Below, piece after piece: positions 3,644 to 9,762 of a stretch of 64,000 bases of DNA; the stretch's first letter is position 1, and each line of letters starts with the position of its first letter. Source of the stretch: Gracilaria vermiculophylla. Taxonomy: Eukaryota; Rhodophyta; Florideophyceae; Gracilariales; Gracilariaceae. The translations under genes and the position numbers were made by a program. The notes under the pieces are model-generated. The model was not told where the DNA came from and made no database searches. It saw nothing but the letters and a program-made list of their open reading frames with translations. The stretch is taken from the NCBI GenBank assembly GCA_019155205.2, contig JAHNZQ020000049.1, positions 1,767,238-1,831,237 of the forward strand, given 5' to 3'.

Positions 3644-5242
3644 CTAGTCTTGATCATACGGTTCCTTTAGCGCATCTCGGAGGACAGGAACGTTTGGGAC
3701 GGCCACAGTGCGATGCTTTTTGACAAAGGCAACAGCATCCTCCAACTCCATACCTTTGACCCAACACAGATATGCCACAGCACACGCTGGCGCCCTTCCC
3801 ATGCCGGCCGTGCAGTGAATGTATACCTTCCGTCCGTCGTTGATCAAGCGTTCCAACGCGCGAGTAGCGCTTTTCAACCTGGCTCTGAGTGAATCACGAT
3901 CAAAGTCGCGAATCTGATGACGCACGACCTTAATGTCATGCTGAGAATACTGTTGCAACAATAGCGGCCACTGAATGGCACGATGCTCAAAATCCTCATC
4001 TGTCTGCACGTTAAACACAGCAGTGACGCCAGCGCGTGCCATCTTGTCAATATCATCAGCACTCTGCGGATACGGCCCGATGAACATGTTCGGCGGCACC
4101 TCGTCGAACAACAAATCGGCCACAAAATTGACGTCGCGGAGCACTCGCTCACCGTTGACAAGCGGCTCATCAGGCTCGAACTTGGCACGACGGTTCGGTT
4201 CGCGCTCCCAGAGTTCATGCTTGGTCTGCGTATTGATCAAGATGTATCTATAGGAGAACGATGGCACGTCCGGCGGAAGCCACACGGGAAGTTTCCACTT
4301 CCTGCCCTTGACGTCGGTTTCAAGCATCTCAACCGGGCCAAGCTCCATGCGTGTGGGGCCCGGCTTGAACCAGGCGCCAATCTGCGGGAGATCACCAGTG
4401 ATGTGCATGACGGCCTCCTCCGGGGCGGGGTAGTAGATGGTGAACAGCAGATGCACTTGCTCCCAGCGCTGGTTCCACACGCGCGGGAGCGCCTTTTCGG
4501 CGGGGCACGCGACGCGATTGGCGCCCTGCTCCCACCTGCGGCTGCCATCGGCGCGCCTCGTGAAGTATTTATACTCAAAGGACTCGGAGAGGCGGGAGCG
4601 GGGGAGACGCATGACGAGCTCGAACACATGGTCGCCCACGGCGGTCATGGGCGGCGAGTGCATTTTATTCCAGGCGCCGAGCTCGGGAATGCTGCCGAGC
4701 ATAAAGAGCTCCTCGCCGGGGGCGACGCGGTACTTGATGCGAAAGGTGAGCGGATCGAGGTTGGAGAGGTCGGAGTCGGAGGCATGGGCGGCAACGCGGG
4801 CGGCGGCTATGGAGAGCGGATCGACGACGGCGGCGGCGGGGCGGTGGGGCGTGCGCGCGGGGGTGGGAGGAGGGCTGGCGGCTGCGGCATAGCGGGAGGC
4901 GGGCTGGCCGTTGGGAGGGTTGGTGGGGACGACGTGATTGGCAGCGCAGCCCCACTGGAGATCGAGCGTGAAGCGGTGGGGGGGGTCGAGGGGGAGGAGG
5001 GCGACGTGGTTGGGACCGGGCTCCCAGTCGAGACGGCCGTCGGCGGTGCGCACGCAGAACTTGAACTCGAAGCGCACGGGGGCGCGGGACGGCGGCAGCG
5101 GCACGTCCACGGTCCAGCGGTGGTGGCTGGTCCACTCGCAGGGGACGGCGGCGGCTGGATCCCAGCGCCCGAGCGCGGGCGCGCTGCCCACCAGCAGCAG
5201 CGAGTCGCCGAACGGCAGCGGACGATGCACGCGGAGGCGCAT
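3644..5242 (-). CDS. Triple-CBM20 dual-specificity phosphoglucan phosphatase (laforin/SEX4-like)
   Basis: A 532-residue protein with three starch-binding CBM20-type modules (about 1-100, 165-262 and 262-365), each with the conserved WE.G.NR/H motif, followed by a dual-specificity phosphatase domain (~378-525). The catalytic P-loop is HCTAGMGRAP, with the nucleophile at about Cys477 and the general-acid region at RDFDRDSLR. Enzymes of this type remove phosphate from glucan chains and are needed for starch or glycogen turnover. The order CBM20-then-DSP is that of laforin. The phosphatase P-loop and the FIGPYPQSADDID entry motif look like the plant SEX4/LSF2 branch, which carries CBM48 after the DSP. 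In a red alga the substrate would be cytosolic floridean starch. The start ATG is followed directly by the first CBM, so no targeting peptide is present, which agrees with a cytosolic site. Confidence 0.88.
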   Translation of the reverse strand: MRLRVHRPLPFGDSLLLVGSAPALGRWDPAAAVPCEWTSHHRWTVDVPLPPSRAPVRFEFKFCVRTADGRLDWEPGPNHVALLPLDPPHRFTLDLQWGCAANHVVPTNPPNGQPASRYAAAASPPPTPARTPHRPAAAVVDPLSIAAARVAAHASDSDLSNLDPLTFRIKYRVAPGEELFMLGSIPELGAWNKMHSPPMTAVGDHVFELVMRLPRSRLSESFEYKYFTRRADGSRRWEQGANRVACPAEKALPRVWNQRWEQVHLLFTIYYPAPEEAVMHITGDLPQIGAWFKPGPTRMELGPVEMLETDVKGRKWKLPVWLPPDVPSFSYRYILINTQTKHELWEREPNRRAKFEPDEPLVNGERVLRDVNFVADLLFDEVPPNMFIGPYPQSADDIDKMARAGVTAVFNVQTDEDFEHRAIQWPLLLQQYSQHDIKVVRHQIRDFDRDSLRARLKSATRALERLINDGRKVYIHCTAGMGRAPACAVAYLCWVKGMELEDAVAFVKKHRTVAVPNVPVLRDALKEPYDQD

Positions 5243-5385: not shown

Positions 5386-7830
5386 TCAGCGTGCGCCGCG
5401 CCCCCCGTCTCCCACCCCATGCCCCTCGCCACTCACTTCCTCCGTCCCATCCGCCTCTTCCGCCTCCACCGCAGCCGTCGCCGCCACCTCCACCTCCGCC
5501 ACTGCTGCCGCCGCCGCAGCCGCTGCCGCCGCTGCCGCTGCCGCCATCGTGTCCATCACCACCACCCTATCAAGCGCCTCCGCCCCCCCCGTCTCCCCAC
5601 CTCTCCCGGAAACCTCCCCCCTCGCTTCACCTCCCCCCACATCTCCCCCAACTTCACCCCCAACGTCACCGGCCACCTCCTCCCCCTCCACCACCTCTCC
5701 CGCAACCTCCCCCGCAACCTCCCCCGCAACCTCCCCCGCAACCTCCACGGCAACCTCGCCTGCAACCTCGCCTGGAATTTCGCCAGCAACCTCGCCTGCA
5801 ACCTCGCCAGCAACCTCCCCTGCGACCTCGCCTGCAACCTCGCCTGCAACCTCGCCAGCAACCTCGCCTGCAACCTCGCCAGCCACCACCCCTGCAACCT
5901 CCCCTGCAACCTCCCCTGCAACCTCTCCTGCAACCTCCGCCCCCACCTCCACCTCCATCGCCACATCACCTCCCCTCCCCACGGCGCATGCCCCCGCAGC
6001 ACCCTCCACCTCCAGCCTGGCCGCCGTCTCAACATCCGGCACCACGTTGCCCGCCCGCTCCACCTCGCTCACACGCCGCTCCACGTCGTCCTCCAGCCGG
6101 TAACCGAGAAGCCGCATCCCAGCGTTATCACTCTGCCGCATCCGCTTTACGCTCAGCGCTTCCCCCATTAGCTCGCTCTCCAGCTTTGCCAACTGCCACT
6201 CCTCCCCGTGCACCCCGAACAGAATTGTCCCCACTTCGCTTCCGTCGCACCGGTACGACACCCGCTCCAGTTGCACGCCCTCCCGCGGCTTGCCGAGCAG
6301 TTTGCGCACCCCGTCCCGGCTCTCCTCGATCTCCACCCGGAACACCGCCGCCGCCTTGCCCTCCTCCACCGTCACCGCTGTCCACTCCACCACGTTCACG
6401 TCTTCCGTGCTGCACTCCCCAATGTCTCTCACATGGAACCCGACCTCCACCAGACTGGCAACCACGCTGTCCCGTGAACGACCACCATCGTATGATATAC
6501 CAATCATCGTCGGCCACTCACCAACATGCCTCACCCGCTTCACTTGAACAGCACCCAACGCCGTCATCAAGTCTTCAAACGAGACTCCGTTGACACCAGC
6601 CGAAACGTGCAAAAAGCATATACTACCGTCTACCCGCTCGGCCAAATCCGCCACACGCCTCATCTGCGCAAAATCTCGCAAAGGCCAGTCGCCCATGCAC
6701 AGCAGCCGCTCATGCACCAGCGAGTGACTTAGAGAGTATCGTACTGCTCCCGCCACTGCCATTGCACCCTCCGGCTGCAGCATTACGTCACAGTCGTCAA
6801 ACACTGCCTTCACGGCGCCGCACATTTCGGCGTAAGATACTTGAACCACTTCATTGACGTACACCCTCCAGTCCTCATTCATCCTCACTCCCTGCATCAC
6901 CACGGCAATCAGCTTCACGCCGCGCCCGAGCCTGTGCAAAATTGCCGCCAGCGCGGCAAACAGTGGCGCATTACCAGCCCTCACAAAAATAGCATGCGCG
7001 TGAGCGCACTGCTGCAGCACTTCTAGTCCTAAAGTAGCGTACCCAGCAATCGCATGATCCGCTCCAGCGCGTAGATCGGCGGCCACCTCCACCAGCGTGC
7101 GACTCTGTTCGGCTGCAAGACGCTGCGCGAATTCGATGCTATCGTCGGGTACGTGCAGCACCTTGGCTTCAGTTGCGATTAATTGTCGTCTTCTCGCGAT
7201 GGATAGAGTTTTCTTCACCAGTACGCTGCACGGCTTTCCATGCTTTTGTGCGGCAATGGCCACGGGGAGCGCATCGGCTCCCCTGCAAATTATGCCAGCC
7301 TTGGCAATCGGGGTGTTTGAAATATGATTGTATGCGGCTCGAAACACGGCCGAGCCGCCCGTTTGCAGATCTTCCCGCTTGATAAACAGCGAGCTCGCCA
7401 AGCGCTGCGACAGGGCGCTCATCAGCTCGCATGGCGTGCGGACAGCTTCGCGAAATGTGGCAGACACCACCGCGGTCTCGAGCAACACATCGACGGTTGG
7501 AAACGGTTTGAGAGCCACAGCCATCATCGGTGCGTTTAGAATGTTGCCAGAGCGCGTAGAGCCTGACAGCCTTGGCCGCTTCTGGCGCGGCTGCGAGCCA
7601 GCGCTAAACTTGGTGTACTCGTCGGCATGGCGACGGCGCATGTGCTGAATGAAGTTGCTAGTGACGTTTTTCTGACCTTTGATGGTGGTGCCGCAGTGGC
7701 GGCACGCCGCCTCGACATAGCCGTGCTCCTGATCGACCTTGTACGTGGATACATCGAAGTGTTCCACTATGATTCGCGGCGGCTTGACCGGCGGCAACAC
7801 GCGCGGCTTTGGCGCTTCAGCCGTCGTCAT
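5386..7830 (-). CDS. BED zinc finger fused to a degenerate threonine deaminase-like fold with ACT domains
   Basis: A protein of 814 residues from the ATG at 7830. An in-frame ATG at 7968 would add 46 basic residues. Domains in order: a BED-type zinc finger (~20-72; C43, C46, H63, H68); a basic PRQKRPR patch; a PLP fold-type II, threonine-deaminase-like region (~118-365); two ACT-like regulatory domains (~400-580, the second with [16 protein letters not shown]); and a low-complexity tail of about 21 four-residue EVAG units, acidic Gly-rich sequence and a poly-Ala run. The deaminase resemblance is extended: [19 protein letters not shown] and [10 protein letters not shown] sit where expected. 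However, the PLP-lysine motif SFKxRGA reads SAVFRAA, the SAGNHAQG loop reads CRGADALP, and the Gly-rich phosphate loop reads AGNAPL. PLP chemistry therefore looks impossible. Inference: a DNA-binding pseudoenzyme, perhaps sensing branched-chain amino acids through the ACT domains. It diverges from the WD40 gene across ~345 bp. Confidence 0.8.
5698..5949 (-). repeat. 12-bp coding minisatellite (EVAG tetrapeptide repeats)
   Basis: About 21 imperfect tandem copies of a 12-bp unit encode Glu-Val-Ala-Gly or close variants within the C-terminal tail of the BED/threonine-deaminase-like protein. The unit length is a multiple of three, so copy-number change keeps the frame. The tract is followed by Gly/Glu-rich sequence and an alanine run, and is probably disordered. 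Confidence 0.85.
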
Positions 7831-8175: not shown

Positions 8176-9762
8176 ATGCCCGAATTTGCCCGGAGCCCTG
8201 TCCAGACGCTCTCCCTGGCGCCGAGAAGCAACCTGCTTGCCGCTCAGACCTCGTCAAACTCCTTTGCTATCGCTCAAATTGCCGCACCCACCGCCAGCCC
8301 CCACGCGTTCCAGCCCGCCGATGACTGCCCAGCACCTTCGCTCACTTCGCTCTGTCTGGCCTCTGCGGACGTTCTTTACCACGCAGACGCCAGAGGCGCC
8401 TTCCACCGACATGCCGTAACCGATGCGCCTTCTCTTCAATACAGCGTTGACGCAGCGCACACTGGCCACGAGCTCACTTCCATCACAGCTCTATCTCCTG
8501 ATACCGTGGTTGTTACCGCCGGAAAGGATGGCGCCGTACGCTGCTGGGACCCGGAAACACGCCAATGCACGGCAAAGTTGGCGGGCCATAAATACGAAGT
8601 GCGCTCGGTTGCAGCATCAGCTTCCTCAGATGTGGACGGTAGTCCAGTCACTATAATTGCATCAGGAGGTCGCGACAAAACAATAAGGTTGTGGGATGTT
8701 CGCGCTCATTCTTCAACTCAGCTTCACACTTTTGAAGGGCATACGAGCTGGGTCCACAGTGTTGCTCTTACCGCCAACCCTACTCCGTTGCTGATTTCAT
8801 GTGCAGGTGATAAAACAGTCCGCGTGTGGGATCTCGTGGCGATGAAAGAGCGTTCGGTGTTCACGGGGCACGAGTACCGTGTTTGGAGCGTTGCCGTATC
8901 TCCAGACGGTCGTTTTGCCGTCAGTGGAAGCACAGACGCAACTGTTAGATTGTGGAAGCTCGGCGAAGATGAAGGAAAGTGCCATGTGCTCGAGGGACAT
9001 AGGGATAGCGTTTTGTCTGTAGCGGCATTGACACCAGCTTGCATAATTTCTGGGTGTGAAGATGGAACGCTCTTCAGCTGGGATTGTCGCGGGCTGCTAA
9101 GCGTCCCTTCGGACGCCAATCTGTTGTACAACGAGAGCGATTCTTTGAATGACACAGCGTCAACAGTTGTCGATGAGAAACCTGGCGTCTCAGACAAGAA
9201 TGTTGCAGAACTCGTCGTCGACGAAAAAAAATCATTGATTGATACCGAACCTGATGCGCCACCTTCGGCTCTAAGCACACCAAAACACTTTGAGACCGAG
9301 GTTCTAGACTCTGGAAACCCTCCAGAGGCTTCACGCTCAACTCCAGCAACTCGCAAAAGTGAAGAGACAGACGCCTTAAAGATGGTTGTCTCTACACCAC
9401 CGGAGAAGGATCCTCGTTTCGACAAGTCCGCTGCTGAACTAGTTTTTGCTCTGAAGCGGATACAGGCCTTGGAGAAATCCTTGCAGCAGGCGGAACAGGC
9501 ATTGGGAGTGAAAGAAACTCAGGTCGCACAGTTAAACAAGTCTATCGCAGAGAAAGATCTACTCATTTCGCGCCTTCAAGGAGAACTGAGTTCCTCAAAG
9601 AGATTACTACACGCTGCAAACGTGCGAAATCTCCTTGAACAGAACACTAGAAAAGCAGATGTTGCGCTCGACTATCAGGAGCCCGTTAATCGGATCGGGG
9701 CTGTGACGGATCAGCTTACTGCTTTGAAAGCAAGACTTGATGCCATGATTGCTACTAACTGA
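8176..9762 (+). CDS. WD40-repeat protein with C-terminal coiled coil
   Basis: A 528-residue protein. At least five to six WD40 repeats are visible from about residue 55 to 320, with clear GH...WD spacing and signatures such as TIRLWDV, TVRVWDL and TVRLWKL, enough for most of one beta-propeller. Then comes a Ser/Thr/Pro/Glu-rich, probably disordered linker (~320-420). A heptad-like coiled coil (~425-528, starting near [12 protein letters not shown]) ends the protein. Such proteins act as scaffolds; the order resembles adaptors in vesicle traffic, autophagy or transcription. No family-specific motif allows a firmer name. The ATG is preceded by short GC-rich sequence. Confidence 0.85.

Follow-up and report, generated by a model that had tools for sequence, protein, structure and literature searches.

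The locus and its reading frame

In a 64,000-nucleotide stretch of the genome of Gracilaria vermiculophylla (the window, within which all coordinates are given) we found a gene on the minus strand that joins a BED zinc finger to a domain of the threonine deaminase (IlvA) type, in which the motifs for the cofactor pyridoxal 5'-phosphate (PLP) are lost. The frame and its two main domains are located as follows.

5386..7830, minus strand: whole BED-pseudo-threonine-deaminase frame, 814 amino acids and a stop codon (5386-5388), ATG at 7830, open throughout
7603..7785, minus strand: BED zinc finger region, residues 16-76, over the Pfam zf-BED cut-off
6625..7494, minus strand: pseudo-catalytic domain, PLP fold II, threonine deaminase type, residues 113-402

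The initial annotation, made from the sequence alone, had proposed that a BED finger and a threonine deaminase fold share one frame, and this was borne out: the frame is open, both Pfam domains score over their cut-offs (zf-BED 29.7 bits, cut-off 20.6, E 6.5e-07; PALP, PF00291, 83.2 bits, cut-off 35, E 2.7e-23) and the arrangement is conserved in relatives. The start codon is backed by P0002, a relative from Agarophyton chilense whose protein opens MTTIESPEPRILPP. A single-exon gene is ordinary in Gracilaria, since 70.6-76.6% of the genes there lack introns according to the available part of PMC10388701. The nearest NCBIfam model is that of the two-ACT biosynthetic threonine deaminase (TIGR01124, E 5.6e-40); the protein contains the PLP fold II catalytic domain that belongs to IlvA, and its score of 137.4 bits lies below the equivalog cut-off of 411.3.

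The search for the same fusion in other genomes, which the initial annotation had asked for, found 11 further BED-PALP proteins, one of which comes from A. chilense (Rhodophyta, Florideophyceae) and is 82% identical. A protein search returned at least 34 proteins at E <=0.001 among 7997 candidates scored, ten of them with both BED and PALP, and a second search with their alignment returned at least 57 proteins among 7996 scored, 11 of them with both domains. That the family is confined to the red algae is the natural guess. We rejected a chance fusion or a misjoined frame because 11 other proteins have BED and PALP domains arranged in this order, and a pseudogene because the frame, the zinc ligands and the core are retained in relatives down to 28% identity.

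Loss of the PLP site

Motifs were counted in an alignment of the 12 family proteins with 127 IlvA rows, comprising the genome's own IlvA, the best 120 among 7999 proteins that match this enzyme, and six from the family protein search; given this choice, the rows lean to close kin of the genome's own enzyme. The three PLP motifs of the window protein read as follows.

7345..7347, minus strand: Val162 at the position of the PLP lysine; Lys in 0 of 12 family members
7261..7284, minus strand: lost Asn (SAGNHAQG) loop, reading RGADALPV, residues 183-190; two residues gone in 12 of 12
6958..6978, minus strand: lost phosphate-binding Gly loop, reading AGNAPLF, residues 285-291; GGGG run lacking in 12 of 12

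All three motifs had been described as broken at once in the window protein, and each is lost in every one of the 12 family members. At the site of the Schiff-base lysine the family has Ile (7/12), Val (4/12) or His (1/12), whereas the IlvA rows have Lys in all 124 that carry a letter there (three of the 127 had none); an aligned lysine, which would have refuted the initial annotation, was found in no member. The GGGG run is likewise present in 127 of 127 IlvA rows versus none of the family. The KRED motif and the Arg two residues past the lysine site are invariant in all 12 members, and the predicted models match IlvA over the core and the regulatory part, with 453 residues of model 113-576 aligned to the IlvA of Pseudomonas aeruginosa. 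Structure prediction therefore agreed with the fold that had been claimed, and the search with hidden Markov models agreed in part: PF00291 was matched, as given above, but PF00585, the model of the regulatory domains, found no match in the window protein. The evidence supports the conclusion that the PLP chemistry has been lost and that a catalytically dead threonine deaminase was probably recruited and joined to a finger of the DNA-binding type.

A separate and intact threonine deaminase, for which the initial annotation had also asked for a search, does exist in the genome (44.8 Mb in 27 contigs scanned): it lies on contig C9, with all PLP motifs present and PF00585 matched twice. For the BED-deaminase gene the genome yielded no second copy. 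One could ask whether the window protein is an inactive subunit that pairs with the active threonine deaminase and controls it, with the BED finger serving protein contacts. The homology to IlvA, itself a homo-oligomer, speaks for such a role, but the two proteins share only ~26% identity (tblastn) and they are likely to reside in different compartments: PALP starts at residue 110 of the genome's own IlvA, after a long, perhaps transit-type N-terminal extension, and since this extension has no counterpart in the window protein the compartments probably differ. We regard this pairing as very improbable.

The BED finger, the linker and the acidic tail

Outside the pseudo-catalytic domain and the regulatory part, the following features were distinguished.

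7702-7704 (C43), 7693-7695 (C46), 7642-7644 (H63) and 7627-7629 (H68), minus strand: zinc ligands, C-x2-C-x16-H-x4-H
7570..7581, minus strand: basic KRPR motif, residues 84-87, nuclear-localisation-like K[KR]x[KR]
7495..7602, minus strand: basic low-confidence linker, residues 77-112, predicted local distance difference test (pLDDT) <50 at 82-107, 17-69% identity to relatives
5389..6093, minus strand: acidic low-complexity tail with VAGE repeats, residues 580-814; 235 residues, 55 D+E versus 10 K+R, 17 VAGE

The assignment of C43, C46, H63 and H68 as zinc ligands holds throughout the family, as their spacing is kept in 12 of 12 members. The zf-BED model matched all 11 members scanned (E up to 0.1) and also P0038. 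A K[KR]x[KR] motif follows the zinc pattern at a distance of 13-15 residues in all 12 members, and a nuclear role may be supposed for it. Searched by itself against the PDB sequences, the BED region matched nothing significantly (best E 0.18; E 1.6 for ZBED1). Many BED zinc finger proteins (PF02892) come from hAT transposases. The hAT dimerisation domain (PF05699) is absent from the Pfam matches of the window protein and from the five families listed for the 11 members. The genome scan gave two BED matches, the other one being in a protein that holds several further zinc fingers by eye, and two matches to the hAT dimerisation domain (27.1 and 25.5 bits, above the 21.4-bit cut-off), which bear on a transposon source of the BED finger.

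Acidic tails of 103 to 328 residues, with net charges of -6 to -72, are found in seven of the 11 relatives, and a tail of 0 to 3 residues in P0008, P0009, P0010 and P0011. Where present, these tails could be activation regions. The VAGE repeats set the tail in the window (5386-6093) strongly apart from that of the closest relative.

The ACT-like part and the proposed isoleucine/valine sensing

Two ACT-like domains had been claimed for the deaminase fold.

6406..6624, minus strand: eroded first ACT-like domain, residues 403-475, from the fold alignment to IlvA; PERPG loop and linker His/Arg lost
6106..6354, minus strand: eroded second ACT-like domain, residues 493-575, from the fold alignment; SYR in place of the HYR of IlvA

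Both were recovered by fold prediction, but by sequence they are weaker than had been stated: PF00585 gave no match in the window protein, neither in the Pfam search nor at this locus in the genome scan. It matches two of the 11 members scanned, and weakly (best E 0.0054), although the fold still aligns to IlvA through residue 576.

In yeast Ilv1, Tyr423 and Tyr526 are reported to recognise isoleucine, and a His and an Arg of the linker to be important for inhibition (available part of PMC8904041). By motif we would place the corresponding residues at Tyr450, Tyr546, His498 and Arg500 of the genome's own IlvA. The linker His is kept in one and the linker Arg in none of the 12 family members, versus both in 127 of 127 IlvA rows; neither ACT domain has its PERPG loop in any of the 12, with P0009 retaining a Pro-Gly in the second. 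The first ACT Tyr is kept in four members and replaced by Phe in six and by His in one (the window protein), with a gap in the remaining one, and the second ACT Tyr is kept in seven and its neighbouring Arg in eight, the window protein having both.

The ACT site is therefore a weak candidate for binding isoleucine or valine, though the window protein retains the Tyr and the Arg of the second domain. Mean pairwise identity within the family is 74% for BED, 50-51% for PALP, 36% for the linker and 31% for the ACT part, which is thus the least conserved domain. The corresponding values among 22 IlvA rows treated as red-algal, nine of them with red-algal names and one from this genome itself, are 72% (PALP) and 60% (ACT), so that the family's ACT part has drifted beyond expectation. 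The initial annotation had inferred a DNA-bound sensor of isoleucine or valine, and its first half stands: a dead deaminase appears to have been recruited to a finger of the DNA-binding type, the fusion is conserved, and the intact deaminase is separate. The second half, sensing of branched-chain amino acids through the ACT domains, can still point to descent from the two-ACT type of IlvA (TIGR01124), to the ACT fold in the predicted model and to the Tyr and Arg retained in the second domain of many members, but the erosion of the ACT part relative to IlvA, the lost loops and linker residues, and the lack of a PF00585 match in the window protein make it unlikely.

Conservation of the former pocket and invariant cysteines

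To represent the former PLP site we picked 33 columns from the IlvA motifs; these are conserved to 65% on average versus 49% in the rest of the domain, and only 0.14% of 10,000 random column sets reached this value. Three cysteines of the pseudo-catalytic domain are invariant in the family and nearly confined to it.

7429..7431, minus strand: family-specific invariant Cys134; 12 of 12 family members versus 1 of 127 IlvA rows
7228..7230, minus strand: family-specific invariant Cys201; 12 of 12 versus 0 of 127
6790..6792, minus strand: family-specific invariant Cys347; 12 of 12 versus 0 of 127

On the strength of its conservation, we consider the remodelled former PLP pocket no less likely to be a sensing site than the ACT domains, and put it forward as the better candidate. 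It could be asked whether the dead deaminase is a scaffold only, a ligand-free oligomerisation platform for the BED fingers with control exerted by expression level or by partners. A protein in which three PLP motifs are lost and the fold is kept, and in which the ACT part drifts and the BED finger is the most conserved domain, would look much like this, but a former pocket that is better conserved than the remainder of the domain, together with three new invariant cysteines, exceeds the needs of a bare scaffold, and we find this explanation doubtful. The cysteines could themselves form a redox, metal or thiol sensing site, for which their near absence from the IlvA rows and a further one, C378, present in ten of 12 members, would argue; as buried invariant cysteines can be structural, a sensor of this kind seems quite improbable.

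Family history and neighbouring genes

The family forms one clade at 100/100 in two trees, on a long stem, and 15 IlvA rows taken as bacterial form one clade that excludes the family (100/99). An origin of the dead deaminase from the red-algal IlvA was not shown: placing the family together with the bacterial rows was not rejected by the approximately unbiased (AU) test (p-AU 0.39), and a very long stem leads to the family. The tree used for this test held 17 IlvA rows taken as red-algal (the genome's own and nine bearing red-algal names) and 15 taken as bacterial (nine bearing bacterial names); no plant, fungal or stramenopile IlvA was chosen, and P0011 was left out for its long branch. The other tree includes P0011, with its long branch, and six family rows in it have an odd letter make-up.

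For the BED-PALP member P0008 and the intact IlvA P0089 alike, the longest contig is given as 11003 bases; they may share one contig, which would bear on an origin by duplication. A broken PALP-like stretch with four in-frame stops lies at C22:1778822-1779316 (L013; 34 bits, cut-off 35); tblastn with the window protein and with the genome's own IlvA gave no match to it at 1e-2.

Two further genes flank the frame. A laforin-like protein is encoded at 3644-5242 on the minus strand, 143 bases from the end of the BED-deaminase frame; it has three CBM20 stretches (classical laforin has one) and a dual-specificity phosphatase domain. A WD40-repeat protein, with a C-terminus that is coiled-coil-like by eye, is encoded in divergent orientation at 8176-9762 on the plus strand, 345 bases from the start of the BED-deaminase gene.

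A proposed DNA-bound regulator

We propose, with a probability of roughly 0.55, that the gene encodes a nuclear, DNA-bound regulator built from a BED finger and a copy of threonine deaminase that lost its PLP chemistry, the remodelled pocket of which would bind an effector or a partner. A BED finger would have been joined to a threonine deaminase copy, after which the PLP chemistry was lost. IlvA forms homo-oligomers, dimers or tetramers, and the pseudo-deaminase fold may likewise assemble the protein into dimers or tetramers, by which two or four BED fingers would face the DNA together. An effector or partner bound in the former PLP pocket between the two lobes would shift the lobes and so change DNA binding. 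The analysis shows the fused frame and its conservation, the loss of the PLP motifs, the separate intact enzyme, the fold in prediction and the conservation of the former pocket; residence in the nucleus, binding to DNA, assembly into oligomers and ligand sensing are all inferred.

Several points weigh against this proposal. The conservation of the pocket may owe something to core glycines and alanines, and it may be due to fold stability alone. The core of the family protein is 82% identical between this genome and A. chilense, and the genome's own IlvA 90%, so the core has changed faster than the enzyme. Not every BED finger binds DNA, members of the family vary widely in their C-terminal tails, and nothing in the analysis points to a particular ligand or target gene.

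More tentatively, the family may represent a eukaryotic class of ligand-gated regulators derived from a fold-II PLP enzyme without its cofactor, in which the emptied pocket with its new invariant residues is the receptor and the enzyme oligomer spaces the BED fingers on DNA; we consider this possible. If the proposed regulator is real, it would be a clear example of an enzyme turned gene regulator. To our knowledge, little is known of transcription control in red algae, and a protein of this small size lends itself to direct assays of binding to DNA and ligands.

Comparison with known systems

We know of no described protein of this architecture. No paper on a BED zinc finger combined with threonine deaminase or dehydratase, or on a BED finger in red algae, was found in the open-licence literature, no such protein is named in the title or the start of the abstract among the matches listed from the pseudoenzyme literature, and the main text of the Gracilaria sex-chromosome paper (PMC12502185) does not contain 'BED'.

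The window protein shares with IlvA (TIGR01124; PF00291 and two PF00585; PDB 1TDJ, 9D2Q, 8Y1J) the predicted fold over the core and the regulatory part, with KRED and other core landmarks invariant, but differs from it in the absence of the PLP lysine, the Asn loop and the Gly loop, in the eroded ACT loops, in the N-terminal BED finger and in its score (137 versus 411 bits). With the BED zinc finger proteins it shares a finger near the N-terminus with the C-x2-C-x16-H-x4-H pattern, but it carries a pseudo-deaminase and has no PF05699 among its Pfam matches.

Bacteria fuse DNA-binding domains to PLP-using enzyme folds, for instance in GabR (available part of PMC6522883). A eukaryotic case with a different PLP fold and with the cofactor motifs lost would, if true, be an independent invention. 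In CymR-CysK of Bacillus a fold-II PLP enzyme also takes part in gene regulation, CysK being listed as controlling CymR in the same part of PMC6522883, but there two proteins and an active enzyme are involved, whereas the window protein is one fusion without PLP motifs. The MocR/GabR transcription factors likewise fuse a DNA-binding domain to a PLP-enzyme fold for regulation, as described in the available parts of PMC5320631 and PMC6522883, but in the window protein the finger is of the eukaryotic BED type and the enzyme-like domain, of fold II, has lost the PLP motifs. By analogy the window protein would work most like the bacterial GabR design, while not being a member of the GabR family.
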